Shown: positions 1 through 60,673 of the stretch, in pieces
Position numbering within the stretch: position 1 is the first letter of the stretch
Layout: the number at the start of each line of letters is the position of its first letter
DNA from: Apostichopus japonicus
Taxonomy: Eukaryota; Echinodermata; Holothuroidea; Aspidochirotida; Stichopodidae
NCBI RefSeq assembly: GCF_037975245.1
Contig: NC_092578.1
Location: 19,381,321 to 19,445,320, forward strand
Length of the DNA stretch: 64,000 nt
Reading direction: 5' to 3'
Program-made: the position numbers and the translations under genes
Notes under the pieces: generated by a model
The model's input: the letters and a program-made list of their open reading frames with translations, nothing else
Told to the model about the DNA's origin: nothing
The model's database searches: none

Positions 1-2755
1 TCTTATCGCCAAGTTGCCAACGGTTGCTGCCACCATTTATCGCAACCTCTACAGAGAAGGCAGTAGCGTCTGTCCCATAAACACTGACCTTGATTGGTCT
101 GCCAACTTCTCCGCTATGCTCGGCTACGATGACAAAGATTTTGTAGACCTGTTAAGACTTTACCTCTTTCTTCATAGGTGAGTTAGTTATTTTAGATTTA
201 CATCACTCCTGGTAAAGGGGAGGAGGGGGGGGGGAACTGTGAGAGTAATGAGTAACTTAGTTACTAGTGAGATGTGGTGGTATAAATATAAATTTTAAAC
301 TCCTCTTTCCAATCAATGTCTCTCTTTCAGTGACCACGAGGGCGGTAATGTGAGTGCTCACGCAACGCATCTCATCGGTAGTGCTCTTTCGGATCCATAC
401 CTTAGTTTTGCAGGCGGTATGAACGGTCTCGCAGGACCCCTCCATGGATTAGCCAATCAGGTAAGGCTTAGGATTCCTTTGTCTACTGACCTGGAATTAA
501 ATGGAATTGTGGGCTATGGGTACACCTCATCCTTGTAAAAGGTTGAATTCATGTGGTCTTTTAATTTGCATACCACTTAAAGGAATAAATGCATGAAGCC
601 AATAGATTTGGACACATTGTTATTAAAAATTGTGGTAAAGCTATTTTTATTGCAGGAAGGGTGGGGGGGGGGGTTGGGGATTAAGTTACTCGGCTTTGAG
701 TCACACATTGGGAAGCATATGCATACTGATTCAGTATTTCAATGACAGAAATTATTCTAAAATAACATAAATTTCAGCGGAGACATTCAAAAATGAAATT
801 CATCTCACAAAGGAAAGTGAGTCACAGCCAGTGTTTTTGTTACTTTATATTTTTTACCAAATAATGCAGAAGAAAGTTTCTTTACTTCCTGTTTTTTATC
901 CCCACTTTTAAGGGGGTGGTGTTGGAGTTTACTGTGGGGGGGGGGGTGAAGGCGGTGGCTTGATGGTAGGAGGCTATAAGTTTTCTTAAAGTTATTTAAT
1001 TTTACTATGATTCTGTTTCTTTCCTTTGTTCTTATGTAGGAAGTGTTAGTCTGGATTAGCAAGCTCAGGGAGACCCTCGGTGGGGATGTCTCTGATGACC
1101 AACTAAAGGAATTCATTTGGAACACATTACAATCTGGCCAGGTAAGTGCCGGTGTGGACCTCATTAGGTCTCATGAATATGCAGTCTACCATACTTTCAC
1201 AGCCTGCTTCATAGGTTAGGATCTGTTCATACTGTAAGAATGTGTGCTTAGAAACATGATTTGGGAGGACAGTTAAGAGTGGTATCAGCATAATGTCCCA
1301 ACTGGCTGATTGGGTAGCTAAAGGGGGCTCAATCTCCATCTTCAGCCCCTATTCACTCTGTGGGCGCAGCAGCAAGACTGTGCCTGAAGGAAACACTTTT
1401 TCTACAAACCCCTGAATTATAAACTCAATGAAATCTTTATTACCCATGTACTCGCACCGTGAAAGACTTTAGAACTGCCTATATGCTGATGCACTGGTAT
1501 TCCTGTATGCCATGGTGTATTTTTGCCCAATATCATTCTCGCTGGCTGGAAAGATTGGTGGGGCAAATTGACATTAAAGCATTGCAAATGCTTTGGAAAT
1601 GCCATTGGCAGTTTTGTGACAGTTTGTAAATTCTGCTGCTGCTATGACATTACCAGTAGTAATACTTCTACAATACTTTCCTTTTTCCAGGTCGTACCAG
1701 GATTCGGTCATGCCGTTCTACGTAAGACAGATCCACGATATGTGGCGCAGCGAGAGTTTGCACTCAAGCACATGCCCGAGGACCCTCTATTCAAGCTAAC
1801 CAGCCAATTGTACAAGGTGGTTCCCGATATCCTCCTAAAGCAAGGCAAGGCCAAGAACCCATGGCCAAATGTTGATGCTCACAGCGGTGTCATTCTGTGG
1901 GTAAGTAATGCCTCCTGCTTTTCACCATGACAGCGTTTTCAAAATGAGATGAAAAGTTGATGGAATATCTACTCGGGTGAAGCGTTTACCACATATGTCG
2001 TTGTTAAGCATTTTGGAAACTAAGTTACAGTGTAATAAATAAAGGCTGTAGGAGCTGCAGCAAGGCTCCATTGATAGTCAGCAACAGAAATAGTTACTGT
2101 AGGTCAGCAGTGCCTTATGTGTTACACACTGGTACAAGAGGTAAACATATCCTTTGTATCCAGGACGGGTGTGAATGGCTGACTTTCGATACATTGCCTC
2201 ACTAGTCTGAAGTGGATTCCTCATTTTTGCCAGGAAACTCTCGGACCTGATAAATTATGTTTCTCCCCTAGTGTTGACCTCTCGGATTTAGTAACCCGCA
2301 TCGTGCATTTTAAGGAAGGGATGGCATTTTTAGGGTCCACTCTTGGTTTTAGTGGTTCTATGTTTCAAGGATGATAGTCAAAAACATGGAAATAGGAGCC
2401 TGTTATCAGAAATCAGGAATGTCTGGCCACCTTATTGTATATGAACATTATCCTTTAATTTTCTTTTGTTAATCTTATGTACAACATAACAAGAGTACAA
2501 CAATATTCTCTTACAATGTTTTCATCGATTTCTTTTCATTCTGCTCGGTAGTTGTTGATTTATCCCATTTGTTTTATTTTCTTCTCACAGCATTACGGTC
2601 TAACGGAAATGAATTACTACACAGTAATGTTCGGTGTGTCTAGAGCCTTGGGAACAATGGCGTCACTTATCTGGGATAGAGCCCTAGGGTTCCCCTTGGA
2701 GAGACCAAAGTCGATGAGCACAGAGGGCCTTAAAAAGCTTGTCGGTGCCTCCTAA
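1..2755 (+). CDS. CS: Citrate synthase, mitochondrial (3' part, five exons)
   Basis: Citrate synthase condenses acetyl-CoA and oxaloacetate in the mitochondrial matrix, the entry step of the TCA cycle. Exons read as 1-177 (open at the window edge), 331-460, 1040-1141, 1691-1900 and 2591-2755 (stop TAA 2753-2755), all with GT/AG borders and consistent phase. They encode the C-terminal 260 or so residues of a protein usually about 465 long. All three catalytic residues of the family are visible: the His in NVSAHATHL, the His in [15 protein letters not shown], and the Asp in [11 protein letters not shown]. Other family blocks are [16 protein letters not shown] and [16 protein letters not shown]. 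The protein ends LKKLVGAS, without a peroxisomal SKL-type tail. The 5' exons, including the transit peptide, lie left of the window. Identity is very sure. Confidence 0.97.
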
Positions 2756-3666: not shown

Positions 3667-3672
3667 AATAAA
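3667..3672 (+). terminator. Candidate poly(A) signal of CS
   Basis: AATAAA lies about 910 bases after the CS stop codon. I saw no other clear AATAAA between the stop and this site, but the 3' end was not proven. Confidence 0.35.
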
Positions 3673-7980: not shown

Positions 7981-7986
7981 TTTATT
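7981..7986 (-). terminator. Candidate poly(A) signal of HSPE1
   Basis: TTTATT on the plus strand reads AATAAA on the minus strand, 265 bases beyond the HSPE1 stop. A second candidate pair lies at 7126-7135, which would give a much longer 3' UTR. Confidence 0.4.
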
Positions 7987-8250
7987 AAAGCTTTAATTAT
8001 ATACTTCCCAGTTGACAGCACATTGTTTTGTTACCTTATTTGATAATGAATGATACATGAAAATGAATATTCAGGGAAACATCCAAGTCACATGAGAGAG
8101 GCCATCTTAAAATATCTCACACGATCGATTGCTCTTCAAAGGCAGTTATTGTCACAAGTTGAAAACCTGAAAATAACTTTGAAAAGTTGACTATGCCATC
8201 TGTGAACTGCTTTAATGATTGATGCATACTCCCAACTATTGCTTTTGGTC

Positions 8251-10479
8251 TCATGAATCTTGTTCCCATTTGGCCAGGATATCTCCTTCCCTGAAGAGGT
8301 GGAATTCCTGAGAAAATTATAAAATACAAAAGGAAAAAAATGAGAAGGAAGGAAATATTGCTCCCCAGAAAATAATGGTGAGAAAAGTAATTGACTTTTG
8401 CAAGTTATGTTGGTACAATCTGAATCAGTTCAAGTTTGGATGCTCTCTTACAAAATAATTAAGCATTTACACACCATCAACCTGGCAAGGAAAATAGATG
8501 ACATTATGTGATAATGACCAAATGTGAACCTTAAAGGGACTAGAGTTTTTCACAACTGAAGGTTACCAGAAAAGGGTGAAATATAAGATAGCATTCAATA
8601 ATGGAACAGAACCCCAAACAGCATTGCAATTGTGGGGACCAGAGATCTCCTACTGTATGGATATTATTATCTCTGATACTACAATGTTCTGAGCTATAAT
8701 GTCTGTAACATTCATCTTATGAGTGGGCCAGCAGTATCAATAATTATCACTCACTTGCCCTCCTAAGGCAGTGGGAAGGGTGAGAGCTAACACCATATTT
8801 CATTGTTTACCACACATCCCACTAACAAATCACCTGTCTAGCATTCATCCCCATGTATTCTCTAGTGCACCTCCCCAACCCCCACCTCCCTCTCCCTACA
8901 ATCACCCTCTCACTCTACACAATATTAAGCTTTTCTGGAGAGAAGTTCTCTATTTTAATGGACATTAAAGACATAGAAAATGAACTCTAACAGAAAACAT
9001 TTATCAAGACTCTTTTCACCATTAATCTTCCTAATGTACATGTAATGAACAAAACGACAAGATTGACAAACCCTTACTTACATGTACAGAAAAGTAAACT
9101 GAAGCGAAAATAAATGTGTTTTCACCTCCACACAGGGTTAACTTACTTTGTCTTCAATTTCCACTTTGGTGCCGCCATACTCTGGAAGGAGGACCCTATC
9201 ACCTACACCCACTGTCATAGCTGTAAAGGTACCATCCTGAGTGCAAAAAAGCCAAGAATCAAAATCACCACAAATCAATTGCCATGCAGTCAAAACTAGA
9301 AATAGAACAAGTCAAATTTCCCAAACCCAAGGGGTGCCAATAACACATAAAGTTCATTTTGTAAATATATATTTAACTGAAGTGCATGTTTTGAATCTCT
9401 GCCATGAAACAGCTTTCTGCTTCAAATAGCTTTGAAATAGACAGTTTAGAACGCCAAAACATTTGTATGTTTTTAAAATACACTGCATGAACCTGCCTTT
9501 CTTTTTAAGAAAATCGCACTTAAACAAATTACTTAGCTTCTGACATGTCTCAAAATAATATATTTTGATGAATATTGTACAAGATTGAAGTTGTATACAA
9601 TTTTTCTTGTTTCTTTTGTCTTCACTGCACTGATTTTTAACAATGGAAGGGTTGTTCATCCAGAAGTATAATTACAACTCTAACCAAATGTGTGCAGTAA
9701 ACACTCTTCAAGACCAACAGATCTCATAGCAATTTACCTCCTTCCTGAGTCCAGAGCCAACAGCTACAACTGTGGCATCAAGGACTTTAGCTTGAGCTTT
9801 TTCTGGGATCAGCAAACCTCCTTTGGTTTTCAGCTCTGGTGTAAATCTTTCAACAAGGATTCTGTCAAATAGTGGTTTGAATCTTCTTAGTGCAGCAGCC
9901 TTTGTATAAGAAATGAAAAACAGAAAGAATAGGAAAAAAGATTTTGCACATGTCTGCAGATATAGTGGAACATAATATTACCTGTACAAAAGCCCCCACG
10001 TATCCAGGTACCCTCCACCAACTCTTGACACGTTCATCACATACATATATGCCTACATCACTTGTACTTGAAAGTTGTATAATCTGAACTAGCTCAGAAA
10101 GTCTACCCCATTCCCCTCCACTTAACCTCAGCTGCTCTGTAATATTACAACAGTTTGGCCCAGGCCTTTTCCTGCCTGAATTACAGGCTTGTAGTTGCAC
10201 GTTGGTCTATGCTAACTGTTCCTGTGCATTAGACGTAATTATAGTTTAAGGCATAGGCCTAGCCTGTAACTTTTTAGTGAGTCCTAACACTAACACAGTT
10301 AGGCCTGGTCAAGGCCTAATCATAGGTAACACCGACAACGCGTTAGACATTAAGTTCACTTAGCCTACTGCCTGTCGAGGTATGGTTAACATGAGAAAAA
10401 CATTAACGTAATTAAACTGGCATCATTTCTAGCATCCATTCGATATGTACCATTAGGAGATTAAGATAGAACTAACCAT
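8251..10479 (-). CDS. HSPE1: 10 kDa heat shock protein, mitochondrial (HSP10, GroES-type co-chaperonin)
   Basis: HSP10 forms the seven-subunit lid of the mitochondrial HSP60 folding chamber. Coding exons in transcript order are 10477-10479 (only the ATG, then donor GTTAGT), 9738-9899, 9147-9236 and 8251-8307 (stop TGA 8251-8253). They give 103 residues against about 102 in the family, with phase 0 at every junction. Landmarks are FKPLFDRILVER near residue 10, KTKGGLLIPEKAQAK (the mobile loop that binds HSP60) near 25-39, ATVVAVGSG, GDRVLLPEYGGTKV and the end LFREGDILAKW. Putting only the start codon in exon 1 is unusual, but frame and family length both require it. HSPD1 lies head-to-head 2.7 kb away and encodes the partner, so shared heat-shock control is likely (see 10533-10547). 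Confidence 0.95.
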
Positions 10480-10532
10480 TTTAAAGTACGATATTGAGAG
10501 CTGCAGTAGGTCTACGATGTCAGGCCTTCCAA

Positions 10533-10547
10533 ATTCGAGAAAGTTCG
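10533..10547. promoter_or_regulatory. Heat-shock element, three perfect alternating pentamers
   Basis: ATTCG-AGAAA-GTTCG fits the HSF1 consensus nTTCn-nGAAn-nTTCn with no mismatch. It lies 54 bases upstream of the HSPE1 ATG, close to the likely transcription start, inside the HSPE1/HSPD1 intergenic region. A weaker two-pentamer site, GGAAG-CTTCC, lies near 10795-10804. HSF control of HSP10/HSP60 is established in animals; use of this site is inferred. Confidence 0.65.
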
Positions 10548-13143
10548 CTGATCTAATACTAAAGCACACTTAGTGGCATGTTAGTGTGTTCGTATTTTCT
10601 ATGGCATCGACACCACACAATATGCATTACACAACTCAACACGGTGAACATGTGCAGATTGTTCAATTACGCATGCGTTTTACCAATTCCAGGGATCGCG
10701 TGAAAAATAATGTCCAACTTAGCTTAGTAGGTTGTGAAAGAGCAGCAAATCAGTATGTAGCACGTACTTATATGAGCAAATTAAGCCTGCATGTAGGAAG
10801 CTTCCAAAAAGTGTGGGGGGGGGGGGGGTGGCACAACACCAGAGGGGCACTTTCTCTTTCCACAACCACCACTCGTTATGCTATAAACCGATACACACCG
10901 GCCATATCACTTAATATATGTGTTAGTGCTATCAATACTGTTATGGTGCACGTCAATAATTCAAATAAATTATAATTAACAAAGGCTTAAGATATCCAAA
11001 AGGCAGTTCTTCATCAAAGGGGGCACATTTTATTTGCCAGTAGGGCACATTTGCTATTTTGGAAAAAAAGTGGGGGGGGGGGAGGGCACGTGCCCCCAGT
11101 GCCCTGGCTACTACCCCCTGTGCATGCATGTGCTATTTTGACTGATTATGTCAATATCGAGAAGCAGTCGCACACATTTTCGATATTTTCAAGTCACTTG
11201 TCACCCTTCAATTCCTCGAGCTGACAGTATGGCATTTGATGGACCCTTTATCCAATGTGAACTGGCCCATAATAGTCATATGATGTCAGTAAAAGTAATC
11301 TAAGAGAAACGGTGGCATATGCTGATCAGTGACTACTAATGAAAGGATCCACTCCCTGGGCTCGTACCGGGCTACCCGGTATCTTATAGTTTAGCGTGTT
11401 GATGTCATGTGTATAAGTTAAGGTGTTACATTATCAGCTCATGTTTTGCTTGTGTCAGCTATTTGAGATTTTCCTCTGAGCAATTTGCCCGTGCGATATG
11501 GCCTACAGTAGTGTAGTTTCGCTCAAGGACCATAAACCTGTAGGCTTTTGCTGCATCGGGGTAGATGGGAGAAGTTAACATATTCTTAATGAAGTTGACT
11601 TTTATTCGGGTCATAACAATATGGGAACCAGTGCATTCAACTACATAATCCTGGTGAACTTGACCGGAGTCTGGCGGGCCAAGTTGTCTTTAGTCACGCG
11701 AGAATCCAGGTGGTGTGTGATTATTCCATAAACTTGTTTTATCAATCCGCATACACATGAATCAGTGGGGAAATACGTGTCGTGAATAGATAAACCTTTA
11801 TTTTCGATTGAAAAATCAGCAGTATTTTGATGAATCAAGTTATTCATTTGTAGAAAAAGAAAAGAAGTAGAAAAAAGTTTATCGTTATCTGTCTTCCGAT
11901 TGTAGACAGTATTTCAATTGTTGACTTTTTGCCTTTGGCGATCCCTGACTAAAAGATCCTGATTTGCATATAGCAGACGACAAAGATTGCATAATTATTC
12001 TGGTAATTTCGTAGATACAAGCTTGTCGGTTGCGCAGCCCACGTGAGTCTCCTTGTAAACCAAACGGCATCAGAAGCAGGGAAAATCTTCTGATAATTTT
12101 GTCGAATTAACCGCAAAACATTGCATACTGGTAAGTGATTATGTAGTATAGATTTCAGAGGGATTAAATTGAAAATATGTGAATGGAAGAACATGGGTTC
12201 AGACCGGGTAGTTGATCGGCTTCGCCTTTACAATGCTCGTGCTAAATATATGGCCATGCATTACACAAGTTATTGATGGTGACTTGTAATTTGTATTCAG
12301 TGTTTAGTACAAGGCCTATGTTAGCCTAATATTTGTAAATAGAGCCTAACACTAAAAGTGGTAGGCTGTAGGCCAAAGGTGCTGCTTGTGATAATCCGTG
12401 TAACCTGGGCATTGCATTTGATATTTATAAACTGTCATTTATGAAGACTGTGTAAATGCAGTGAATACAATAGTGGAAATTTTAGGCCGAACTCAATAAT
12501 CATCATATACAAATTGCTAACTGGGCTAGGTCTAGGCAACATTTCAGGTACTTCCATTATTTGCCAAGTAGTGCTTATATTTAGAAAAGTATCACACTGG
12601 TACTGGTACTAGTAGGGCCTAGGCAATGTAAGACTAACCCTAGGTCCAAAAATTTTGAGCCCGTATTACAGCATGAATTTTCCTTTCAGGAACTTACAGC
12701 AAAAATGCCACATACTGAGTCCATCAATAGATCAACAGTCTTCAGACAGCCAATGTGTTTTTTGGCAGTAAAAGATTACAAAGTCATCAGACCTAAGTTT
12801 CTTAGTGTTTGAATAATTGCTTGCTAAAGTGCAGAATAACCGCACCTCTTGAATCTCACAAGTTATGACCGAAAGTCTCTATAAGAAGCAATGTATTTTC
12901 CTTCTCAAAAAACCCTGTGTGCGAGTTTCAGTGCAATTGCTCCCAATTGCTTAATCCATAATTCATTTTCTAATTTCTCTTCAGTATAGTCTACCCACAC
13001 ATAATGAATAGTCTTATTCATATTTACAAAGTAATCAGTGTGACAGGATAACAGGTATCTCATGTTTTAATATCCAAGTCACTGTTTATTTACCCACATA
13101 TAACATTATAGGCTATTGCTTTTGAAATTTTCCAAACTTACAG
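10548..13143. other. HSPE1-HSPD1 divergent intergenic region and HSPD1 5' leader
   Basis: This region separates two divergently transcribed partner genes. It contains a G-run repeat remnant (10814-10828), a second one with GGGCACGTGCCC near 11085, and an AGGCCTA-rich part around 12310-12640. Only the probable HSPD1 leader splice signals suggest transcription. No other gene was recognised; the open frame at 10586-10975 has no family features. Confidence 0.55.
12131..13143 (+). other. Probable 5' UTR intron of HSPD1
   Basis: A consensus donor (CTG then GTAAGTGATT at 12131) and an acceptor (AAACTTACAG ending 13143) bracket a 1013-base interval just before the HSPD1 ATG at 13155. This suggests an untranslated first exon ending at 12130, as in many HSP60 genes. 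An in-frame ATG at 13116 lies upstream of this acceptor and would be removed by the splice, which favours the 13155 start. Confidence 0.5.
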
Positions 13144-13154
13144 GTACTAGCATC

Positions 13155-16100
13155 ATGTATAGACTTCCAAGTGTATTACGTCCAGTGGCATCACATGTAC
13201 TGAGGCCCTCAATCCAGAGATCTTTAGCTCCTTCCTTGACAAGAAGCTATGCTAAAGATATCAAATTTGGTGCAGAAGCAAGAGCATTGATGTTGCAGGG
13301 AGTTGATCTCTTAGCTGATGCAGTTGCTGTTACATTAGGACCTAAGGTAAAGTTGCAAATAATGTAGGGACATTACATAAAGATTGAAACATACATCTAG
13401 GTTCATGAATCTTACCGAGTTTTGATGGAATCATGTTCTTTCATAATGCTGTAAACTGTATCCCCACATTAAGTTTATCCACCAGTTGTGATCCATGCTA
13501 TTGTACATACACACTGATATATGCTCCTCTGAATTCTAGGAAGTCACAAAGATTCTTGCTGGCAAAATCTTCAGAATTTGGTGTAATATAAATATATAAG
13601 TATCCCAGTGACCATTAATCCTGTTGCAATTTTTCTGATGTGCCATGCTAATCCCTTGGCGTAGTTAAGGGTTGGGGGTAACCAATTATTTCAAATCATT
13701 TTACATAATCATAAGTCTATTACCAAGTGCAAGAGTAGTGGATTTAAGTTCATTTCAACGTGCAATGGTGAATTAATGAGGACTAGCTTTGTTTTCACAG
13801 GGTAGAAATGTCATTATTGAACAAAGCTGGGGTGGCCCCAAGATTACCAAGGATGGGGTGACAGTAGCCAAAGCAATAGAACTCAAAGACAGATGGCAGA
13901 ATGTTGGCGCCAAACTGGTTCAAGACGTCGCAAACAGTGCGAATGAGGAAGCAGGGGACGGTACGACTACCGCCACAGTCCTTGCCAGGGCAATTGCAAA
14001 GGAAGGCTTTGAAAAGATCAGCAAGGGCGCCAACCCAGTTGAGGTTAGGAGGGGCATAATGCAAGCCGTTGAAGTGGTGGTGGAACATCTAAAGAAGAAC
14101 TCCAGACCTGTCACAACACCTGAAGAAATCGCTCAGGTGAGTTGTTATTCTATGTAAGGGGAAGAAAGACCGTTGCAAAGAATAATGTACATAGTGTTCA
14201 AATTTTGTGTAGTAGCTAGTTTAATTCTCTGAACTTTTTTTTCAAACTTCTATTGTTCCTTTGTACAAAACTTGCAATACTTCAGGCTTGCACTTGTGTG
14301 GCATTTGTCAGTTTTAATAGCATTTTGCTATACAGTGATACCAGACAAATGATTTCTTGCATTGAATTGGTTGGAATAATATACATATCTTTGTGATACA
14401 AACTTTGTTAAGAATGAATGGGAAAACTTAAACCCAACAGGGATGATTTGACAAATAAAGTGTGTTCAAATAGTCAAACTTTTACAAAGTTACTCAAGTC
14501 TCTGACGTTCAGAAGCCTCATCTATACCTGCTATAATATGGCATGCATTTTAAAGAGGAATGTTCATCATTTAATTCAACTAGAGAAACTACTGGTCATT
14601 TTTTTAAGTTTCATTTTAATTTTGTGACAGGTGGCAACCATATCGGCAAACGGAGACACAGTGATTGGTGATCTCATCTCCAAGGCCATGAAGACTGTTG
14701 GTAGGTACGGAGTCATCACAGTGAAAGATGGCAAAACTTTGAACGACGAATTAGAAATCATTGAGGGTCTCAAGTTTGACAGAGGGTACATCTCACCATA
14801 TTTCATCAACACACCAAAAGGTAAAGAAAATCATTTCAGTTTTGTCTGAAGGTATTCACATGCTTGAGTTTGCATTTAATTTAGTGGTACCATACATGAA
14901 TATAAAGTAGAGATAAGTAGAGATAAAGATACCTGTGCACAGGTGTTACTGTAGGCTGTTGTACTTGCATCTCTGTGATGTTAAACTTTGTCTCAGATGT
15001 GTAATTTATGCAGTCTCATATTATGATTTGAAGTGAGGAAAGGTATAGTAAAGAACAAGGGAAAAGGAGGGGAAGAACAAGGGAGGGAGAAGTGGGGGGG
15101 GGGTGCTAGTGTCAGTGTTGACTCTTAGCGTGCCATCTTTCTTGCAAGTTCTAGAATATTATTCATAAATCTCGATATTATATTTGCATTCATGCTTCAT
15201 GTTGTGGATTTGTTCAATCATTCACAGGACAAAAGGTAGAATACCAGGATGCTCTCCTCCTACTCTGTGAAAAGAAAATTTCAAACATCCAATCAGTAAT
15301 ACCAGCACTAGAGCTTGCCAATGCTCAGAAAAGACCCTTGGTCATCATTGCAGAGGATGTTGATGGTGAGGCTCTCACGACTCTTGTATTGAACAGGTGA
15401 GTTGAAGTGGGCTGAGGGAGGCTATGAAGGAGGCTGAGGGGTGGGGAAGAGGAGTAGTGGAGGGGCAGGGGGGTTTAAGTGAAGGAAATGAAGTTAAAAA
15501 GAAACTGGATAAACAGTGACAAAACCAAACAATCACATTATTGCTAGAACCTTAAGAAACCAAACTTCCTAAGTAAATATAAAGTATATTGGAATGGTCC
15601 TTGCTGGTCAAAAAGGGTTCTTTCTTCTCTTTGAGGTACAAGTGCAATGCAACATGTTGACTCATTTGTGTACTTTGACCATTAGCTTCTACATGTGTGT
15701 ACATTTAAAGATCAAATCAAGTTTAGCCAAGTGGAAATCCTACAATGTGGAGAAGGTTTTAACTTTGGTTGATAGGTGAAATTCATTCTTTGGTTTCTTT
15801 GGGAAATGCATCTGGAACATAGTTTTTCTCTTGCTGAAATTGCAGTCTTATTGTGTATATTAATGGTTGCATATATTAATGGTTGCATATATTAATGGTT
15901 GCATATATTAATGGTTGCATATATGTTAATGGTTGCATATATAATGGTTGCATATATTAATGGTTGTTTAATGTTCTTATTTGTATTAAAGGTTGAAGGT
16001 TGGTCTTCAGGTGTGTGCAGTGAAGGCTCCTGGTTTTGGTGACAACAGGAAGAACCAATTACATGATATGGCTGTAGCATCTGGAGGCATTGTAAGCATT

Positions 16101-42864: not shown

Positions 42865-45774
42865 ATGAATATGACGAATAAAGTTCTGACAGTTTTTTCA
42901 AGAAGATCGCTGCAATTACTTATTACAGAGACGAAACTGATCACAATTAGGTAAGGCCGGGGTAACTAAGACTAACCTTTATTACACTTAGGCTAGGCCT
43001 AAGTTAGATACAGAAACATTACGACCAACGTAAAATACTAAGAAATGTAAGACATTCACTGATTTATATCAGAAATGGCAGTATAGAATTGTCAACATGA
43101 AAAGAAGAAAATTTGAATTTCCAGCCAACAATAGAACTCTTTCCAAATACATTGCTCTGACTGCTGCAGTGTCTTTGCAAATTTGCCACATGTGTTCATT
43201 TTGGATTTGTGGAATTGGTACAGCTACTGTTGCTGTTGGTCAACTAAAATAATTGCTTTCATACAATGTTTTTAGGCACAATAACTTTCTTAGTCTCTGA
43301 AAGGTTGGTTTGTCTGTTTTATCCTCCAAGCAAGTATTTTGGAACATTAAATATGCTGTGTCTTCTTTATTGGCACAAAATTTCAGTCAATGTTCAATTT
43401 CATGTGTTGTTAATGAAGTTAGAAAATTGAATTTCCCACATGGTGGGCTCATAATTGCAGCACTTAAGGATTTGATGAACAATGTCTATATGAGCCTACG
43501 CAATGTACACTTGAGCAGAATTTGACCACAAAATGTCTGCTGTGTCAAGTTCTTTCGTACCCCTACATTGACACATTCGTCGATAAACTAACTGTAGTGT
43601 AGGACTATGAATACACTCATTGACTTTGGATGCTGTTTGCTATGCTCTGAGCCTCCAAGGTCAGGCAGGTCAGGTCCCAGAGGGTAGTGGTATTAAACTG
43701 AGGTAATTTTGGTTAGATTTAGGAAGTAAGATTTCCAAATTCCCAAAATATGTGCAAAACTGGGGGTAGGGTGTTAAAAGCTTGAAAAAAAAAAATTTGA
43801 CTCGCATATACCTGAAATGGATTTAAACTCATGAAATATGTAACTCTGCTTGACTGCAGAAAGTTTAGGTTGGCTGCTGTATCGTTGCTAGTAATATTTG
43901 AAGGTGCGTCAATTACGAAGCATTTACTATACACTTTGTATACAAGTTATTAAACCTTGAGTTAATTTCAAAGTAATTTTTAGGATAAAGGGAGAGTATC
44001 ATCAGAATGCAGTTGAAAAGCATTTCAATGTACTAACTATAATATTAACCATTAATTTATGGTGATTTTAAAATATATTTTCTCTTTCTTTCAGACCGAT
44101 ATGTTTCATGTGTGCTCGTGCTGTACATCACAAACTGTACAATGTCCATCCATGGAAAGTTAACCCTGTCTCAGTATCACACCGGAGTCTCTTTTCAATA
44201 CCAAACCCACTAAATAAAACAAAAGAATACTCAGAGAGAAAAGTTATTGGGTAAATTATATTTTTTTTCCCTTTCCATTATTAAATTAAGTATAACTAAC
44301 AGAATTTACTACTCCCCAGTGTTTCGCTATAAACAGTATCATGAGAAATAATACCTATTTTCCAACTATACTCGATTTGTATTTATATTTTTATTTACAG
44401 TCAGATATTTTACAGTCAGATATGGAATATTATAAGCAAAAAAAACTGAATTGTTCTTGTCAGAAAGTTAGTAGGATGGGATAGCAGCTGGGATGAGAGA
44501 TATAAATGCTGTATACACTTCTGTGAAGTTTTTCTTGGCAAACTTACTACATACACAACTTAGAGCAAAAGGCTCTCACTTGTGTTATTGCTAGCTTGTG
44601 TATATGGTTATGGTAATATATGTAAATTTCAATACCAGTGTTGGTAAGGGGATGCATCTAATTACTCCTAGAGCTACGATTTTTTTCTCTTTCAGGTACT
44701 CAATGCAGGACATGTATGAAGTAGTGTCAAATGTCGAAGACTACAAAGAATTTGTGCCTTGGTGCACACAGTCCAAGATAATACAAAGGAAGGCTGGACA
44801 CTTTAAAGCCCAGCTAGAAATAGGTTTTAATCCACTTGTAGAGAGATATACATCCACAGTGACATTAGCTAAACCACATCTTGTAAAGGTAAGTCACGTT
44901 AATAGTCATCAGTATTCCCTCTACATTATAATTGTTGGCTTCAACAAACCCAGGGCCACCCACCCCCCCCTTATTGGATCTGCCCTCTCCACTTTTCAGA
45001 CTTGACATATTTAGTTTGCATATGTATATATCCAAATGTCTGTTCAATAGATATAACCGTACTTTCTGCTAAGATCCATGTTTGCTTCCTTACATAATAC
45101 AGGCTGTCTGCACTGACGGCAGACTGTTTAATCATCTCATTACGATATGGAGGTTCTCTCCTGGAATCCGAGGCAAGCCAGACACGTGCACTGTAGATTT
45201 TGCTGTAAGTAGTTTCTTTATAAAGAAATTTATATTTTTGGTGATTGAAAGTGATTACCTCTATACTTCATACTGTGGTTATTAAGAAACAGACAATAAC
45301 CAGTTCAGATTTCTTGCAACAGCGTTGATTTTATTAATGAACGCGAGACACTTATGCACGTTTCTTTCAAACTTGTCGTTGGTAATGTCCTTCGTAGATA
45401 ACAACGGTGACACTAGGGCAGTGGGTCTTTTATAAGTATGGCGAGTGAGAGGTTGGATGTGAAGACGGAAGTGCCAGCAAACTGGAAGCGGGCCAGTGTT
45501 TGCAGTTAACCTTAACTTCTTGTCTCTTTATATCAACCCTGCTGCAGTCTGATCATTATTTCAAACCTATATCTACTTACCTCATTTTCTGGCCTTTGTT
45601 CAACAGGTTTCCTTTGAGTTTCGCTCTATCATCCACTCAAATTTATCTACTCTCTTCTTTGACGAAGTTGTGAAACAGATGGTGAAAGCCTTTGAAAAGC
45701 GAGCCGAGAAGCTCTATGGTCCCTCTGCGATGTTGAAAAGTAGCCCAGACTATTCTGTCATGAAGGACCTTTGA
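42865..45774 (+). CDS. COQ10: Coenzyme Q-binding protein COQ10, mitochondrial
   Basis: COQ10 is a START-fold protein of the inner mitochondrial membrane that binds coenzyme Q and supports its use in respiration. Five coding exons: 42865-42950, 44095-44250, 44696-44888, 45103-45204 and 45607-45774 (TGA). They sum to 705 bases, 234 residues, close to human COQ10A/B. Residues 1-75 are basic and poorly conserved, as expected of a transit region. The START core follows: [60 protein letters not shown] and [21 protein letters not shown]. It is the single COQ10 in this window, so neither the A nor the B paralogue name fits. It shares a short divergent promoter with SF3B1, as COQ10B does in humans. 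Start choice between the ATGs at 42865 and 42871 is open. Confidence 0.93.
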
Positions 45775-50695: not shown

Positions 50696-53600
50696 TCAAA
50701 CACCCATGGAAACTTGAATGAACTGCAACAAAAAAACAACATTAAAACAAAATGAGGTATGAGTGATGACAATAAATGGATGTTGAAAGGAGGCTTTCAT
50801 CTGCTACCATTATTTTGATCGTAAGAATAAATCCTTCTTATTCATGATCAAGGAGATACAAACCCAGCTATCATCACTGGATTATTTGATCCTGTGATCA
50901 AGGAGATACAAACCCAGCTATCATCACTGGATTATTTGATCCTGTGATCAAGGAGATACAAACCCAGCTATCATCACTGGATTATTTGATCCTGTGATCA
51001 AGGAGATACAAACCCAGCTATAATAACTGTATTATTTGATCCTGTGATCCTGGAGATACAAACCTAACTATCATCACTGGGTTATTTGATCCTGTGATCA
51101 AGGAGATACAAACCTAACTATCATCACTGGATTACTTGATCCTGTGATCCTGTGATCAAGGAGATATAAACCCCAGCTATCATCACTGGATTATTTGATC
51201 CTGTGATCCATGCAACGCCCACAAGAAGTGTGAAATGCCATAAACCATTCTTAACATCAACCTAGGCTGATGTATGCAGCAGATTTATTGACCATCTATT
51301 CAGTTTTGTCTCTTTTTGTTCTTTAAGAAGTCTTCTCCTGCATTTGAAGACAATCCTTAAAACTTAACCGAGAGAAAGTATTGAGAGATTGAGGTTTCAC
51401 AAAAGTCAGAACGGTTGATCTATTTGTTTGGGTTTGAAAGTCAGACCAGGTGAGGTCAAAACTACTGAGCATCCCTTAAGAGAGGAATACATCCATGCCC
51501 GCAAAAAACTCCTTCTCCCCTCTCCCCCTCCCTCCAACCTACCTGTGTCAGGTAATGAATGGTCATGAAATTCAATGAATATTTATATGGAATGTGATTA
51601 CATTAGTACACAAACATATGAATGTTTGAGCATGCTATTTGCTACATGAAATTAAGATATTTGAGATTGTACATGCTGACAAGATTTCACTGAGCAATGC
51701 CCGTTATGAAATGGACTACAAGATGATATTATTATTATGCTGTGTTTATAATTGGTCAGATTCTTCTGGTAAATTTCCCACAGTCAACACAAACAAACAA
51801 TCCTGGTAATTTTTAAGTTCCTAATTCCTCTGGATGACTAAACGTAAGGGACGATCACGTGTGACGTATTTTGTGCTTCATCATCTTTTGTCTGGAAGCA
51901 GTTTCTCTGTATCTCTTAATATTTCTGATTAATGAAGATATGTCCAAGGACCATTGTGAATGATGATGATCATCATAATAATAATAATCATAAGCAGTTA
52001 TTTTTACGACGCTTAGGCGGTCACAAATGTGGGAGAAACCCGCAAGGGCTTATGGATTACAACTTACACATCAGATGGCTTCCAATTCAACAGTTTAACT
52101 CATATTTGGAATCTTTTCAATTTTAGAAAGTCATATCTGATGGGAAACCATATATTGCTCTTGGATGAAAAACCCACCTTACTATAACCCGGCCGGGAAT
52201 TGAACCCCCGAACCTCCCGATTGCCAAGCCTCATTGCTTGAAATGCCACGGCCTTTATCCACTCGGCCACAGCACCTAACACTGTTATCTATCTTTCTGT
52301 GTTTTGGTCCATCTTTAAATTGTCATACTATCATTATAATACTTAGATCTATGAAAGTTGTCTACACTGCTAACCTCTCTTAGAATTTAAGAAGATAGTA
52401 TACAAATAATGAATGGTTATGAGTGCAATAGTGCAAATATTTCATGAGTTGAAAGATGGAATGTTCCATTCAACTCGGCTGCGCCTCGTTGAATGGAACA
52501 AATTACATCTTTCAACGAATGAAATATTTGCACTATTGCACGAATGGAAACCATTCATTATTTGTTTTATACAACACCTTCAAATTTGGATATAACTGGA
52601 TTTAAAATGCACTCATGCAACAGATTGTTTTGAACAGACAGGTTTCTCTGCTCTCTTACCATTGAAAAAAGTGCTATCAAAAAAGTATAACACATGGTTC
52701 TATTTCATAGAGTGCAATAGAGCGGATTTTGCATGCAATCGATGAGCAATTGACCAATCAAATGGCCGGAATATAATTAGGTGTTGTATAATGATAAATA
52801 CTCACATCATCATACTGAAAGAGTGCTGAGCCATTCTGCTGAGCATCCCTTCGTCTGAACTGATCTGTGAATCATAATAATAACAATAACCATGATGAAA
52901 ACAGCAACAATAAATAATAATAACCACCACAACCACATTAACAATGATTATTTGAACCAAAATAATGAAATATTGTTAGTTGTATCAGTGATATTTTAAA
53001 CACCCATTATAAAGTTACTTTAGGGGGATTTGCCTTACATCTCTGATAACAAACTGTGATTATCATACAACTGACCTATATTGGGTTAAAGCCTAAAGGT
53101 TATATCTCTTATTGTAAGTCTATCTGTGACACGTTTCCAAAACCATTTGAAAGAAGTTGATTCCCTACAACTCTACGGAACAAAAACACTGTCAGCTAAC
53201 CTTATCAGAATAAAAGAATTTGGACTTCAAAGAATTTTGAACACTTGTAAAAGATAACATTGATTGTCCTTTAAACTTCCTTTTGAAGTTTAATACAGTA
53301 ATTACTCTTCTCTATTTGTCTTGTACCTCTCCTTCCCAAATCTTAACCCATAACCTTTCACGGCAGAATTGTAAAATCTCTGACAAACCTGTCAGTGCCC
53401 TGAGTCGGACACAGAGGGCCACAAAGGCGTCGAAGGTGACCTTTCCATTAACTGAGTATCTACGAATCAGACAACCATATGCTTGTGGAGATAGGTTATA
53501 ACCTGATGAAGAAAAGGACACAACAACTGACTCCACACAATCTACACAGTTAATGGTTGCATTGAAAGGACACAACGACCGACTCCACACAATCTACACA

Positions 53601-56600
53601 GTTAATGGTTGCATTGAAAGGACACAACGACTGACTCCACATAGTAAATGGTTGCATTGAAAGGACACAACAACTGACTCCACACAATCTACACAGTTAA
53701 TGGTTGCATTGAAAGTTAAGCTAAAGGTATGTTATAATAATAATATAAACTTCTTATAAAGGGCTTTCCATGAAATCTCGGTGATGCCAATATCTGATCT
53801 TCACTATGTTGGTGAACTTTGCACATTTTTGGGAAGTTCCTGCGGTGTTCATCCGTAGCTTATTTGAAAAGAATTTGTCCTTTAACCATTTCACAAATAT
53901 TACTATGTAAGATAGTCCATTAGATAAAACAGGTGCAGGCCTAAGCTTATTTTGGCTGGTGAGAGAGTAATATATCCAAAGCATCATGGTGAAGTTTGCA
54001 TTCAATTTCTATGTATTGTTTTGGTATGACAACATCTGAAGTTGGCACGCTTTGCATCAAAAGTGAACTTGAAGCAAACAGGTGTAATGTCATAGATACA
54101 CACTGACCATTTTTTTCCCCCTGTTTTTCTTTAAAAAAATCTTGGAAATTGTGATGCATTAACGTAAACATATGTACAGCATGATATCTTTTTTTGGGGG
54201 CTTGCCCGATCAAATGAATGCAAATCTAGTCTACGAACCAAAGCTGGTTAAGGCTTGCTGAAGTTCACTTGGTTCGACTGTTCCAGACCTATCACGATCA
54301 AAATTCATAAAGGTTTGCTTCCACTGGTTCAGTGCTGTCCAGAGTTCTTTAAATTCGTTGAACCCCATCTGACCTGAATAATCTCTCTAAATATGTCAAC
54401 AACGTTAAAGGAAACATGAGGCATGGATTGAAATTGAGTGAATGGGCTTGGAGTAAAGCCAGCATATCAAAGGATAACTTAGCTATCCCCTTACACTTAA
54501 ATTCAGATATGCCTGCTGTAAATCGACAGAGCCATTGGCAAAGAAAAAATAACCTTGCAAAGACAAAAAAGAAATTATCTACCCTTCCCCTCCCTATCCT
54601 CCCTCCCTCCATCCAAAGCAGGTTGATATACATGGAGAGATGTGATTGAGGTTTTGATACTGATCTGTTACAACAGGATGAGGGGAACAGAGGGTTTTGT
54701 GGATCAATCACATAAGAAAAGGCAAAAAAAATACCCCCCAAAAAACTGATCATACTGCAAATCCCTTCAACTAGGTTGAATGAAACATACACTATGTCAG
54801 CTCGATGGTTACTGTACTAACCGAGCGACATGTTTTGTTCGAACATTCAAAGCAATGAGGGAACAGTAATAATGTTGTAATGCATCAAACTCATCACCAG
54901 AATGCAAAAATGCATTGTGGTTTCGATGATGTAACATGAGCAGGTTTCTTCATAAATCTGACGTAATGTATAGTGAGGGTGTACAATGGTTTCACGATTT
55001 GACCTCTGATGACCCCAAATGACATTTGACCTCCAACAAAAAACAATAGGCTTCTTTAACTCAATGTGGTACTTCTACACAGAAAATATGAGGTCGGCCC
55101 AAGCTTCCAGTATTGAGATATCGTGATTACAAGGTATTCACAATTTGACCCCTGGTGACCACAAATGACCTTTGCCCTCCACCAAAAAACAAATGGCTTC
55201 TTTTACAGAATGTGGTACTTCCACACACGAAATATAAAGTTGGTCTGCCCTATCCTTCTTGAGATATCGAGTTTACAAGCTGGGCGTCACAAACGCACGC
55301 ACACATACATGCACACATACGCCATCATGAATGCAAAGGTTACAATTATCATCGACACCAAAAATAGGGAAACCAGACAAAACAATGGATCAAACGGCTA
55401 AAAGAAAACGAAACCTTTGACTTGCCTCGGTGAAGAGACATCACGACGTGACTGTTTTTGTACGATTGTAACAAGTTCCTTAACTTTGAAGGAGGGAGGG
55501 GTCACACTTTGAAACTTCCTCCACTTTATGACCTTTACAGCGTGGTACTGCAAGCACTGAAGTTGACAGTTGATTCCATTGAATGTTAAATATCAAATAC
55601 TAAAAAATTACATTTCTTCTTTAGAAATACAAATATGGACGAGTGTATCAAGGCTGCACTTATCATATGTTTCGTGGCCAACTTTCTTTGAAATTTTCCT
55701 CTTTACTCTCAATAATAAATTACAAAATTTGAGTTTCATAATTTATCACTTTTCTTTTTCTGTGAGATGAAACTCTCCAACCCCATAGTGGAAGCGAAAC
55801 AACTGAGGGAAGACTGGAAAGTGAGGAAATAGTTGTACATCAACAAAGTAGAATTTGTTTTTCTTTTTCGAAATCAGCTTTTTAATCTTTAAGTAAAGGA
55901 TACATCCAGCATGTTGATCATCACAACACAGGTATCTCGACTAAAAGCTGCACAAAGACAAGAAAAGGAAAAAGAAAGAAAGAAACTGTAAGAAAAGTAA
56001 TTTAACAAATATCAATGGTCTCTTCTCTTTTTTTAAAAAAGTTCCCTTCTTTTCAGGATTTGACTGTCAATTACAAACAGATGATATTTTCAATGAGCAG
56101 AACAGGTTTATTCCAAGCTAAGCATCAACAAACTGTCCCAATCTGATCACCTCAGGAATTGTTGAAAGTCCATATGAGTATTCCATTATAGACAGAACTA
56201 CTTACGAACTTCCCAAATGTTTGTACCTCGGACACCCTTTTGATACAAGAATAACATTTATTCAAAGAGCAAATCAAAATATTACAATGTTCGCTCTTCA
56301 TCGTTCCAAATAATGTTATGGTATTTCAGAATGGTATGGTATAAAAAAAATCAAAACGCTGATTTAATACAGAAAGAACAAAAGGTAAAGACTTTTTTGG
56401 TTTAAATCTTACGTTGATAGGTTCCAGCAATGCCAGATGAAGTTAAACATCTTTGAAGCTCGTCTGCGTCAATTTGTCCATCCTGATGAGAAACATTTGA
56501 TATTTGTCAATGAATTAGGTGTCATAACAAAATTGTCTTAGTCTGCCCAAACTACTTGATCAATTAAAGCAGTGGTTCCCAACCTGGGGTTCAAGTATCC

Positions 56601-59600
56601 ACGCTTGCAAGGTGTGGGGGAGGGGGAGGGGGAGGAGGAGGAGTGGAAAGGAAGGTATTAGATCAATTTGTTGGGGATCATACATAGTTCACTGCTGCTG
56701 CTGACAGAACATTTATTGTGGAAACTGAAGGTAGATTCATTGCTTAAGGCCTGTGTGAAGCATTTTCCAATTGTGACTGGTTTTCGAAGATAGGACATAA
56801 GAGGTTATAGGAGAGGGACGAGAGGACACTTTGGCTAGTGGTTGCAATACGGTCGGAAACCATTTCTTGCAAGCATTTAATGACAACCTTAAAGCTTGTC
56901 ATACTCTCCATTTTGCTTACTGAACATGTGATCCAGACCTATGTTCTCTTCATAGAATCAACAGATAACAAATCCTGTCCCCAATTTGTATAAGCTGTAG
57001 TTACATTTGTATAAATGCTCTGGGTTAGGTCTAGGCTTCATATTTCATTTTGCAAAGCAGTAGAGTTTAAAAATTTAATATTAAATCTTGAATCAAGATG
57101 CTAAGTTACTAACCAATAATTTTGTCCTTAAAATTGGCCGAGTTAGTGGGAGACAATATTGGCCTAAACAGGGCCGTTACCCTGAAGCAAACCTAGACTA
57201 CAAAATTACAATGCAGTATTGATAGAAACCAGTTACGATATGAACTTGCCTATATTACATACATATCAAATTTTCAGTATGAGTAACAAGTAAAGAAACA
57301 AATTTCCTAAATGTTAATATTATGACTTCACATTGTTTAAATAAAATTCACAATGTAAATGCTTACCTGACCAGCTACTGCTTGAAAGTAACCAACTAAG
57401 GGATCCTGCTACAGAAAAAAAAAACAAAAAAAAAACTTGTAAGTGAAAAGACATTGCAACTACTTGTATTTTTCTACTAATTTTATTAAATGCACTCACA
57501 CAAAGCAAATAGAATTTAACGATGATTTATTCAACCAACTATTATGGCAGTATGTACCTATGGAGGAATGGCACCTGATCCCACACAAACCATGCTCAAT
57601 AATTTTGCTCTTTCTTTTTGCATTGAGAGTGTTTGAATAAACTTTGCATTCATACTGCAATAATTTCTTAGTTGCAAACCTACCTAATGAAAAAAACCAA
57701 TATTGCATAAATTATATTAATTTACTATATATACTGTAATGGGAATGGAGTTGGAACAAACTGGGGTGAACTGACTAGTCCCATCAATGAATAAATGAGG
57801 AAATTCCATTTTAAGAACAAAATTACACATGAAAGGGGGAATGTTGGCTTAAAACAGGAGATGAAAAAGATTTTGAGCTTGGAAACTGTACACCTATTGG
57901 ACAAGGGGTCTGGTCTTCTGCCATTCTGGTATATCCCAAGTTTCCAACACTACCATAGTATATTGGATAACCAGGCTGCGAATTTTTTTATCCCAAACAG
58001 GTTTGCAATTGCGTGGTTTTCCGCCAATCAGATTGCTCGTGACGTCAATATCAATAATGGGCATCGCTTCGAGTTACACACTGACACTTAATTAAGTCTA
58101 GTAACGGGGTTTCCATCAAACGCCCTAACTGTACTTTTAATGCTTGAATCACATGTTGACCTTACTTATGATACATACACTACATTCTATTGGGTTCGTG
58201 TTTACATTATTCAAGATTTGTGAGCCGTTCTTAACTTCTACTACAATCGGAATTCGTTTCGTGGAATGGGTAGGCCTACACTAAAATCAATCGAGTCTTG
58301 AATGAATATACGCAAACAGTTTAGTGTACAGTATGATATTTTCTGTCACTGCACTGTGTACACAGTTATAATACATATAGGCCACCAGCGCATGTGTGAT
58401 GTACCATGTACGAACATTTCACTGTGCGATGTTATAGATTAATGCCTGCACAGAAAACTTCGATCAAAGTGGATGATCATACCATACTAGTGTGCTCAAT
58501 ATGTCTAAACCAATTCCAAACACATCTACACATATTAAAGAAAAACTTCAGGTAATTTTGAACGCGCATATCTTGGTTGCAATGAATGGATGCAGACACT
58601 TTGGTTACCTGGAATTGAAGGTTTCTATCGTGATGACGTAACTTTTCCGACCAATCACGAGCGCCTATTTACACGCAATTGCAAACCTGTTTGGGAAAAA
58701 AAATTCGCTACCAGGCTATAGACTTAACAGGCTGCAACATGTATTGACTACAACTGCACGTCTTGTAACGAAAACTTATAAACATGAGCACATTACCCCT
58801 GCCATGATTTAGCTCGACTGGCTCCCGATTTATGCGTAAACCACAAACTACTTCTGATTGTGTTCAAATGTCTGCATAACAAGGGCCTAAAGTATCTCTC
58901 TTATTTGTTTCAATATCTGCTGATATCCACACGATCACTCCGTTCTAATTATAATTCATCACAGAAGTTTACTTATATGGCTCAAAATGTTCTCATATAA
59001 TGCTCCTTACTTGTGGAACTCACTTCCAGAACATGTGAAAATGTGCAAGACTGTGAATGGTTTCAAATCAGTTCTCAAGACATATCTTTTTACTAAAACG
59101 TACTGTATATGTTGTAACTATTGTTAAGCGCCACAAGAATTATTTCATAGTTTGTTTGGCGCATATAAATATGATATTTCGATATTATTATTATTACCTA
59201 AGATACTCAAATTTAATACCCTGGTTGAAAAGCACAGAATTTTTCTACAAGCATTTTCTGTAGACCTAGAAAATATGTTTTTTTTACATGGATTTCCGTC
59301 TGGCAGACAATTCATATCCTTTATTGATATACATTAGAGTATTGCCCTACTGTACAATAAATTTACTGCAGTATACATGTGTACATTAAATGATGTGCAG
59401 CTCTGTATGTTTAGTAACTTCATTACCTCGGTGATAATACATGCTTTCATGATCAGTTTGACAGTTGGTCTGCTGCTGTATCTTTGTTATAGCTTACAGC
59501 ATTAATTTTATTGCACATTATACCAAATATAATGCTAGTGTGCCTGGATGCCATTGTGTCAGTTGGGTGCAATATGTCTTTGCACTGAGTGCTCTAGTAT

Positions 59601-60673
59601 GACTATGAGAAATTTAAAACACCTTTACATTACGGATTGGAGACAAACCTTTGCGATGTTTTAAAGTGAAAATTCTTGTTAGTAACGCAAGTAGTACTAC
59701 AACTTCATCATAATGTTTGTTTATGTGTTGGTCCATCAGGCCTACTCTGGTTGAATTTGTGTCCTAGACTAGAGGCTAGAAAGTAGAAGTAGGATGGTGA
59801 CTTCGAAGTTCGGCCACTTAAGACTTAAAACACCCCAAAACTAAATCTTCTGGTATAAATCATTTGAAAATATACTTCATATGGTGGGAGAATTTTGTTA
59901 TAGTACGATACACGGCCAAACTTTCTTTCCTGCAAACTGTTTTCACGTTGTTTTCCAAGAAGATTCTTCGTGATTGTGGAACTGGTATTTCTTGCTAGAG
60001 TATTGCGAAGTTCGGACACGCAACCCACAGTGTGGCGCTGGTAAAAATTGGTGGCGCTGTTGCTCTTTCAGTAATTATAACAGACTTCATAGATCTTCGT
60101 CATTTTATTGACAAATATGTAAGTAATTTCTTGCACACGGGTCATTTTGGAGAGAAAATAACTGTAGCTTCGTACTTTTTGGTGAAATTTGGCTCTTCCT
60201 GTAGGTTTTCATGGTGAAAATCGTGTATTTCTTAGGGTGCCCGAACTTTGCAGTATGGCGAACTTCGCAATACTGACTATACTAAGTTGAAGTAGGCTAA
60301 ATCAATGCACAGTTTATGAATGAGACATGAAACCTACCTTAGCCATGGCCATGACTAGCCAATTTCCAACCCCATGAGTCTGACTGTGAGGCACTGTCTC
60401 GGCAGTAATGTTAGGGCTAGACCATGGTAAGGCTATTTTTCATCAAGGCCGCTCCAACAAATACAAGTTAGGCCTAGGCTAGGCACATAGGCTATAGCGT
60501 AGCGTGGGTATGACCTACTGTACAGTATTTGTTTGTTAGTCTAACTTCAATTTTAGGTACAGTAGTCAGACTAACAGTTAATTACAGTTACTTAGTCTCT
60601 ATGAACTCTTTATGCTTACCACTGGAGGTTGACCAGGATATCCTCCTGGTGCACCGTAACCTGGGTATGCCAT
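50696..60673 (-). CDS. SRI: Sorcin/grancalcin-type penta-EF-hand calcium-binding protein
   Basis: Sorcin and grancalcin are calcium sensors that move to membranes on calcium binding; sorcin modulates ryanodine receptors. Coding exons in transcript order: 60620-60673, 57367-57408, 56413-56482, 55904-55947, 54239-54386, 53389-53502, 52806-52864 and 50696-50722 (TGA). They total 558 bases, 185 residues (human sorcin 198). The start [18 protein letters not shown] is the Gly/Pro-rich tail of this family. EF1 is [16 protein letters not shown]2 [13 protein letters not shown] and EF3 [15 protein letters not shown]4 ([13 protein letters not shown]) and EF5 ([10 protein letters not shown]) are the non-canonical dimer-forming hands. 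QDPLVGYF and [14 protein letters not shown] match sorcin more closely than grancalcin. The donor after 54239 is a poor GTTCGT. The acceptor at 57408 could lie three bases on, giving or dropping one Gln. An alternative first exon is listed separately. Confidence 0.9.
50846..51210. repeat. 50-bp minisatellite in last intron of the sorcin-like gene
   Basis: Seven copies of a 50-base unit beginning GATCAAGGAGATACAAACCC and ending TTATTTGATCCTGT. The first four are nearly identical. They lie about 125 bases from the last coding exon. Confidence 0.9.
52125..52280 (-). repeat. tRNA-derived SINE head (Leu/Ser-type), minus strand
   Basis: On the minus strand, A box TGGCCGAGTGG (52259-52269) and B box GGTTCAATTCC (52196-52206) sit at the spacing of a long-variable-arm tRNA, with GGATAAAGGC after the A box. 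The acceptor ends do not pair and there is an unrelated tail (about 52125-52190), so it is a SINE or tRNA pseudogene. Confidence 0.6.
52402..52565. repeat. Long near-perfect palindrome (foldback element)
   Basis: Outer arms ACAAATAATGAATGGTT (52402-52418) and its complement (52549-52565) are perfect. Inner arms with GCAATAGTGCAAATATTTCAT and GAAAGATG continue to a GC-rich centre near CTCGGCTGCGCCTCG. The whole 164 bases can fold into one hairpin with few mismatches. Confidence 0.85.
52567..52791. mobile_element. Small inverted-repeat element abutting the foldback
   Basis: Perfect 13-base inverted repeats TTATACAACACCT (52567-52579) and AGGTGTTGTATAA (52779-52791) bound a 225-base AT-rich interior without coding capacity. 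The right end stops 14 bases before the exon at 52806, next to that exon's donor. It may form one composite with the palindrome at 52402-52565. Confidence 0.55.
53513..53716. repeat. ~52-bp tandem repeat in intron of the sorcin-like gene
   Basis: Four copies, one shortened, of a unit with AAAGGACACAAC-ACTGACTCCACACAATCTACACAGTTAATGG. It starts 10 bases beyond the exon at 53389-53502, so it occupies the polypyrimidine and branch-point side of that intron. Confidence 0.85.
54984..55280. repeat. Two tandem ~150-bp units of a dispersed repeat
   Basis: The units begin near 54988 and 55138. Each contains CA-ATTTGACC-CTG-TGACC, CAAATGAC-TTTGACCTCCA/GCCCTCCA, ATGGCTTCTTT, TGTGGTACTTC and GAGATATCG. 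An ACGCACACATACATGCACAC run follows the second. The motif resembles repeats widespread in marine invertebrates. No coding function was recognised. Confidence 0.6.
56571..56650. mobile_element. Possible hAT-type terminus
   Basis: CAGTGGTTCCCAACCTGGGG is a typical hAT terminal sequence seen in many animals, here followed by a G-rich run. No matching right terminus was found, so it is probably a truncated copy. Confidence 0.3.
57978..58709. mobile_element. Non-autonomous DNA transposon (~732 bp) with TIRs and 8-bp target duplication
   Basis: Both ends carry inverted copies of about 37 bases with the core CCCAAACAGGTTTGCAATTGCG, starting GCGAATTTTTTT at the left. Identical ACCAGGCT direct repeats flank them (57970-57977 and 58710-58717). 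Farther in, CCAATCA and GTGACGT also recur inverted. No transposase was recognised. The 8-base duplication suggests a hAT-like or similar superfamily, though the ends are not the usual CAGGG. Confidence 0.75.
58724..59196 (+). mobile_element. Degraded LINE 3' end (non-LTR reverse transcriptase C-terminus)
   Basis: Conceptual translation gives AACAGG-frame residues [16 protein letters not shown] and HITPAMI, then LDWLPIYA. After several stops and frame changes it gives [20 protein letters not shown] and [10 protein letters not shown]. This is the standard C-terminal signature of CR1/Jockey-like LINE reverse transcriptases in invertebrates. It ends in an ATTATTATTATTA tail near 59182-59196. The copy is 5'-truncated and decayed, and borders directly on the element at 57978-58717. 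Confidence 0.75.
59999..60274. mobile_element. Small element with 16-bp perfect inverted repeats
   Basis: AGTATTGCGAAGTTCG (59999-60014) and CGAACTTCGCAATACT (60259-60274) are perfect inverse complements 276 bases end to end. Inside the right end, CCCGAACTTTGCAGTATGG is a second partial copy, and GAAGTTCGGCCAC near 59802 outside the left end is related. No target duplication was clear. Confidence 0.6.

Follow-up and report, generated by a model that had tools for sequence, protein, structure and literature searches.

Six genes whose human copies are split among chromosomes 2, 7 and 12 lie together in the sea cucumber Apostichopus japonicus, in the signed order CS(+) HSPE1(-) HSPD1(+) SF3B1(-) COQ10(+) sorcin/grancalcin(-), as read from exon open reading frames and sequence matches. 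The stretch of DNA that we analysed, here called the window, spans 64,000 nucleotides (19,381,321-19,445,320) of C18, a contig of 20.39 Mb. Such a block is a clear case of conserved linkage, which is a known phenomenon; ancient microsynteny was reportedly treated by Irimia et al. 2012. We conclude that it is probably an ancient linked block that keeps the neighbourhood present before the vertebrate duplications, except for an inversion of SF3B1/COQ10, and that its separation from the Hox cluster would correspond to a state before chromosome fusion.

To identify exons, we started from the listed open reading frames and compared them with Pfam and with the sequences of solved structures. These matches bear out the six genes, their order and their strands as a sequence-only reading of this DNA had given them. 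The 3' part of CS (citrate synthase) occupies 1..2755 on the plus strand (Pfam PF00285; PDB 1cts, 636 bits). Its 5' exons lie to the left of the window, with the first recognised exon at about -1608, at least 1.6 kb outside, so the start at position 1 previously given for CS is the point where the window edge cuts the gene. HSPE1 (HSP10; 9150..9902, minus strand) matched Pfam Cpn10 and PDB 6mrc (HSP10, 100 bits) and has two recognised coding exons, 9735-9902 and 9150-9239; a search for its first and last exons gave no convincing candidate. HSPD1 (HSP60) follows at 13155..19922 on the plus strand, with scores of 804 bits to the 60 kDa chaperonin 7v98 and 800 bits to mitochondrial HSP60 9l8p. 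SF3B1, at 24315..42379 on the minus strand, scored 2025 bits against PDB 5ife (SF3B1). Its start codon is at 42379, and exon 1 (MAAVTSRE) ends in a split codon that fits an acceptor near 41279. The models of SF3B1, HSPD1 and CS are partial, with some exons of each unlocated.

COQ10 spans 42865..45774 on the plus strand (Pfam PF03364, 1.2e-26; PDB 1t17, 4.7e-11). Its five coding exons, with edges judged by eye, are 42865-~42952, ~44095-44251, 44697-44889, 45104-45207 and 45608-45774; the start codon is at 42865, and the start exon joins exon 2 in frame. The last gene, of the sorcin/grancalcin (SRI/GCA) type, lies at 52806..60673 on the minus strand and scored 260 bits against PDB sorcin 1juo. 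Against chains of like length, it scored 248 bits with sorcin 5mra and 221 bits with grancalcin 1k94. The start codon at 60673 agrees with the one previously proposed, while a short last exon was not found. At gathering thresholds, Rfam gave no matches across the window.

Several repeats lie within these genes. At the end of HSPD1 stands an expanded GGM repeat (19860-19909; nine-base unit, 5.6 copies), and tandem arrays with units of 45-46 bp occupy introns of HSPD1 (18751-18983) and SF3B1 (29732-30229). Also in SF3B1, a 49-bp unit is present in six copies with 97% matches at 26779-27072. Read over 26900-27260, this unit duplicates the terminal 3' part of an exon and the splice donor that follows it, which yields a series of near-identical donors.

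The order at human 2q33.1 is given in a passage of PMC8319724 as ANKRD44-SF3B1-COQ10B-HSPD1-HSPE1-MOB4, and that at 12q13 in a passage of PMC4938641 as ANKRD52, COQ10A, CS, CNPY2, PAN2, IL23A, STAT2, APOF, TIMELESS. Both passages agree with the human neighbours named in the sequence-only reading, namely SF3B1, COQ10B, HSPD1 and HSPE1 at 2q33 and COQ10A with CS at 12q13. The sea cucumber block thus joins CS, private to the 12q13 locus, with SF3B1, HSPD1 and HSPE1, which are private to 2q33. As in human 2q33.1, SF3B1, COQ10, HSPD1 and HSPE1 adjoin as two head-to-head pairs. In contrast to 2q33.1, SF3B1/COQ10 has the opposite orientation with respect to the HSP pair, the block includes CS and the sorcin-type gene, and MOB4 lies 7 Mb away. 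The likeness to human ANKRD52-COQ10A-CS is the linkage of COQ10 with CS, whereas the 12q13 copy is without SF3B1 and the HSP pair, and its neighbours STAT2 and TIMELESS have relatives on the Hox chromosome of the sea cucumber.

For a comparison of signed orders, we used the human strands of the 2q33 and 12q13 genes. A merged order SF3B1- COQ10+ HSPD1- HSPE1+ CS- accounts for both human loci and their strands through losses of genes and nothing else. From this merged order, the sea cucumber block is at a reversal distance of 1, the single step being an inversion of the SF3B1/COQ10 pair. Only 30 of 3840 signed orders are within one inversion of the merged five-gene target, a target that was assembled after the data had been seen; when the target is just the four genes in their human order, distance 1 or less is reached by 20 of 384 signed orders. 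The inferred breakpoints fall at gene tails and leave both pairs of gene starts whole, in keeping with the earlier claim that SF3B1/COQ10 and HSPE1/HSPD1 are each kept as units. Within 100 kb on either side of the window, queries with MOB4, ANKRD52 and CNPY2 found nothing.

A block that predates the vertebrate duplications should hold single copies of genes that later became paralogues. In a search of the genome (671,581,487 bases in 35 contigs), PF03364 gave one match from two scored candidates, and this match is COQ10 in the window, as expected from the single COQ10 that had been claimed; a divergent copy could be missed by this exon-wise search. The sorcin protein gave seven matches, four of which, on C18, represent the window gene (79-93% identity, with ranges that cross exon ends). 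The other three are distant, one on C3 at 44% and two on C17 at 38-39%, with the same caveat that an exon-wise search could miss a divergent copy. Both genes were therefore detected in one copy each.

COQ10 is 63.9% identical to human COQ10A and 69.3% identical to COQ10B; in a three-sequence comparison with these proteins rather than a tree, 15 of its sites agree with A but not B and 20 with B but not A. Treated in the same way against human sequences, the sorcin-type gene has 69.7% identity with SRI and 63.3% with GCA, with 23 sites common to SRI alone and 15 to GCA alone, again from three sequences and not from a tree. These site counts are compatible with genes that would lie outside each vertebrate split. 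The greater closeness of the sorcin-type gene to SRI than to GCA speaks against a pre-duplication origin.

The sequence-only reading had also taken it as support that the human chromosomes involved carry HOX clusters. A Hox homeodomain query gave at least 32 matches from 81 scored candidates, with at least 10 of them within 6.14-6.93 Mb of C4, a region that we take as the Hox cluster; among the 32 matches listed, none is on C18. Since the block lies at 19.4 Mb of C18 and the cluster on C4, we no longer count Hox linkage as evidence for the block, and the linkage to Hox in human looks secondary. The pre-duplication reading is therefore supported in outline, through the joined private neighbours, the single copies and the one inversion, but without its HOX argument.

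Published linkage groups offer a context for this separation. Passages of Simakov et al. 2020 (PMC7269912) trace CLGB, the chordate group that carries Hox, to three units whose fusion preceded the vertebrates; each is a separate chromosome in amphioxus and has a scallop partner of its own. A section of a hemichordate study (PMC11175523) assigns the ancestral Hox cluster to unit B2, which in Ambulacraria is joined to C2, and a section of a brittle-star study (PMC11310086) describes the 23 groups of the eleutherozoan ancestor as retained in the black sea cucumber. If C18 is B1 or B3, these studies would predict just such a separation of the block (C18) from the Hox cluster (C4), and C18 may be among the units that fused. 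The block resembles the CLGB or Hox paralogon in that its human descendants are on Hox-bearing chromosomes; it differs in that block and Hox cluster are on separate sea cucumber chromosomes, as expected before the fusion.

Eight queries for human 2q/12q genes were used to place markers. Three of them, NAB, TIMELESS and STAT, matched on C4. The match for STAT covers little sequence and is weak (3.2e-8, with one internal stop), and the TIMELESS family match may be either of the two timeless-type genes that invertebrates have. One marker was on C18: over 68 residues, a MOB gene at 12.13 Mb has 91% identity with human MOB4, the neighbour of HSPE1 in human; MOB family matches occur at four places, on C6, C7, C16 and C18. 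The human 2q/12q markers NCKAP1 and CACNB matched outside C4 and C18, on C16 and C23 respectively, so a gene's position in human is not by itself enough to place C18 within CLGB. Queries with glutaminase and ANKRD52 gave no usable answer. With three of eight markers on C4, one on C18, two elsewhere and two unusable, marker genes were rejected as a means of placing C18 in a CLGB unit, and its assignment stays putative. Next to these queries, a RIF1 gene was recognised left of the window at a distance of 73-91 kb; Pfam Rif1_N matched the N-terminal part, and the remainder, which had no Pfam match, was recognised by eye. Human RIF1 is at 2q23.

In human, STAT2 and TIMELESS are four and six genes from CS, as listed in the relevant portion of PMC4938641. 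With relatives of these two genes on C4, while C18 carries CS and COQ10, at least two older chromosomes seem to be mixed in human 12q13, which would agree with the published fusion of three units before the vertebrates.

Together, these observations suggest a course of events whose direction and timing are inferred for the inversion, the losses and the fusion alike. The sea cucumber would have preserved the ancestral neighbourhood apart from one inversion of SF3B1/COQ10. After duplication, one vertebrate copy would have kept SF3B1, COQ10B, HSPD1 and HSPE1 (2q33) and lost CS, while the other would have retained only COQ10A and CS (12q13). SRI (7q21) and GCA (2q24) would both derive from the sorcin gene. 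The position of the block off the Hox chromosome would represent the state before the fusion that made the Hox-bearing vertebrate chromosomes. Duplication and fusion are both usually argued from whole-chromosome statistics, and for duplication the block would offer a compact example at the level of genes, in which one block became 2q33 and 12q13 by loss. It would equally be a gene-level example of the earlier fusion that placed genes of other chromosomes beside Hox. A further lesson is that genes on human Hox-bearing chromosomes need not have been linked to Hox before the vertebrates, as one might easily assume.

We regard this pre-duplication reading as probably right, despite the location of MOB4 7 Mb away, the scatter of NCKAP1 and CACNB and the post hoc choice of the merged order. 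A translocation offers another account of the Hox separation. The block could have been ancestrally on the Hox chromosome, as its human linkage would then still reflect, and have moved to C18 in the echinoderm or sea cucumber line. Room for this is left by the sampling, which comprised only eight marker queries and, on C18, a reading of 264 kb that contains the window and of 350 bases at MOB4. We consider such a move unlikely because MOB4, 7 Mb from the block, and RIF1 are likewise on C18; in addition, ancestral groups are kept in the black sea cucumber according to a section of PMC11310086, and the three-unit origin of the Hox-bearing group described in part of PMC7269912 allows for separation. 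Somewhat less likely still is that CS joined the SF3B1-HSPE1 block independently in two lineages, with the adjacency of COQ10A and CS in human being unrelated. The distance of about 40 kb between CS and COQ10 in the sea cucumber, with three genes between them, would suit independent arrival, as would relative strands of CS and COQ10 that differ from the human arrangement until the inversion is undone. One inversion with losses nevertheless explains all of these features, and it is less likely that CS arrived twice next to one and the same small group of genes. Chance proximity of unrelated housekeeping genes is hardly credible: these gene families are common to animals, but four of the genes adjoin in human too, as a passage of PMC8319724 states.

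Four of the six genes, CS, HSPE1, HSPD1 and COQ10, encode mitochondrial proteins. Selection for joint control of a neighbourhood of nuclear genes for mitochondrial functions is improbable, in our judgement. That idea draws on two divergent start regions that serve three mitochondrial genes and SF3B1, and on an inversion that broke at gene tails. The more specific proposal of the sequence-only reading, that shared promoters hold each pair together, has about even prospects. SF3B1 and COQ10 are divergent, and their start codons, standing in for transcription starts, are 485 bp apart (42380..42864), well under 1 kb. This gap is a candidate shared promoter within a peak of CpG observed/expected (o/e) at 42.3-43.1 kb; values in 500-base windows over 42130-43114 reach 1.12, compared with a mean of 0.40 for the whole window. 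HSPE1 and HSPD1 are likewise divergent, with known coding exons 3.25 kb apart (9903..13154) and the first exon of HSPE1 not found. CpG o/e reaches 1.11 in this interval, where a CpG-retaining stretch at about 11.5-12.3 kb is a candidate promoter. The maxima in the three tail-to-tail intervals are only 0.55-0.73.

Random placement equalled the CpG values of SF3B1/COQ10 and HSPE1/HSPD1 in 3.6% and 13.6% of trials, respectively, and comparable peaks near 58.0 and 62.5 kb do not coincide with known gene starts. For these reasons, the CpG data are supportive of promoters but not strong. HSPD1 probably has a 5'UTR intron, with an acceptor at about 13143 and a candidate donor after 12130. Heat-shock elements were represented by one plain-consensus match (10534), which is not clearly above chance. 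Human SF3B1 and COQ10B are about 18 kb apart; a shared core promoter therefore cannot be what keeps them adjacent in human, and a compact promoter is not needed for adjacency. The proximity of the start codons in the sea cucumber thus favours the proposal, whereas the human distance does not, and shared promoters, as predicted from sequence, are plausible but unproven. For the HSP pair, a bidirectional promoter of human HSP60/HSP10 has been published (Hansen 2003, as cited in passages of PMC2871058 and PMC2670823), and conservation of the divergent pair across metazoa is stated in part of PMC2871058. The sea cucumber pair shares the head-to-head orientation but differs in the 3.25 kb between coding exons, the probable 5'UTR intron of HSPD1 and a predicted promoter that is only roughly placed.

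Among the papers covered by a text search, there is none in which SF3B1, COQ10B and the phrase 'bidirectional promoter' co-occur. The titles and beginnings of abstracts that were surveyed held no account of this block in invertebrates, and the text of PMC8851819 had no occurrences of the block gene names that were searched for.

Other observations concern the flank and the rest of the genome. Beyond the start of the sorcin-type gene, CpG o/e reaches 1.33 and exceeds 1.1 over the stretch at 61.0-61.5 kb, and a pure (AT)55 run lies at 62513-62622, about 2 kb from that start. Reverse-transcriptase-like open frames, recognised by eye only, are present in the right flank at window positions +84515 to +85289, about 20 kb beyond the window. 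The mitochondrial contig is C35 (16,099 bp). In 1,341 bases of its COX1, 9 AAA, 22 ATA and 5 AGA codons agree with conserved residues when translated as asparagine, isoleucine and serine, in keeping with the echinoderm code (table 9; table 14 would yield an identical COX1 product). The frames and tRNAs, with rRNAs placed in the gaps, give the order COX1-ND4L-COX2-ATP6-COX3-ND3-ND4-ND5-(ND6)-CYTB-tRNA cluster-ND1-ND2, an arrangement typical of sea urchins and sea cucumbers. On C29 (31,219 bp), pieces of COX1 occur at two places about 15 kb apart, as in a doubled mitochondrial genome, which is perhaps an assembly by-product.
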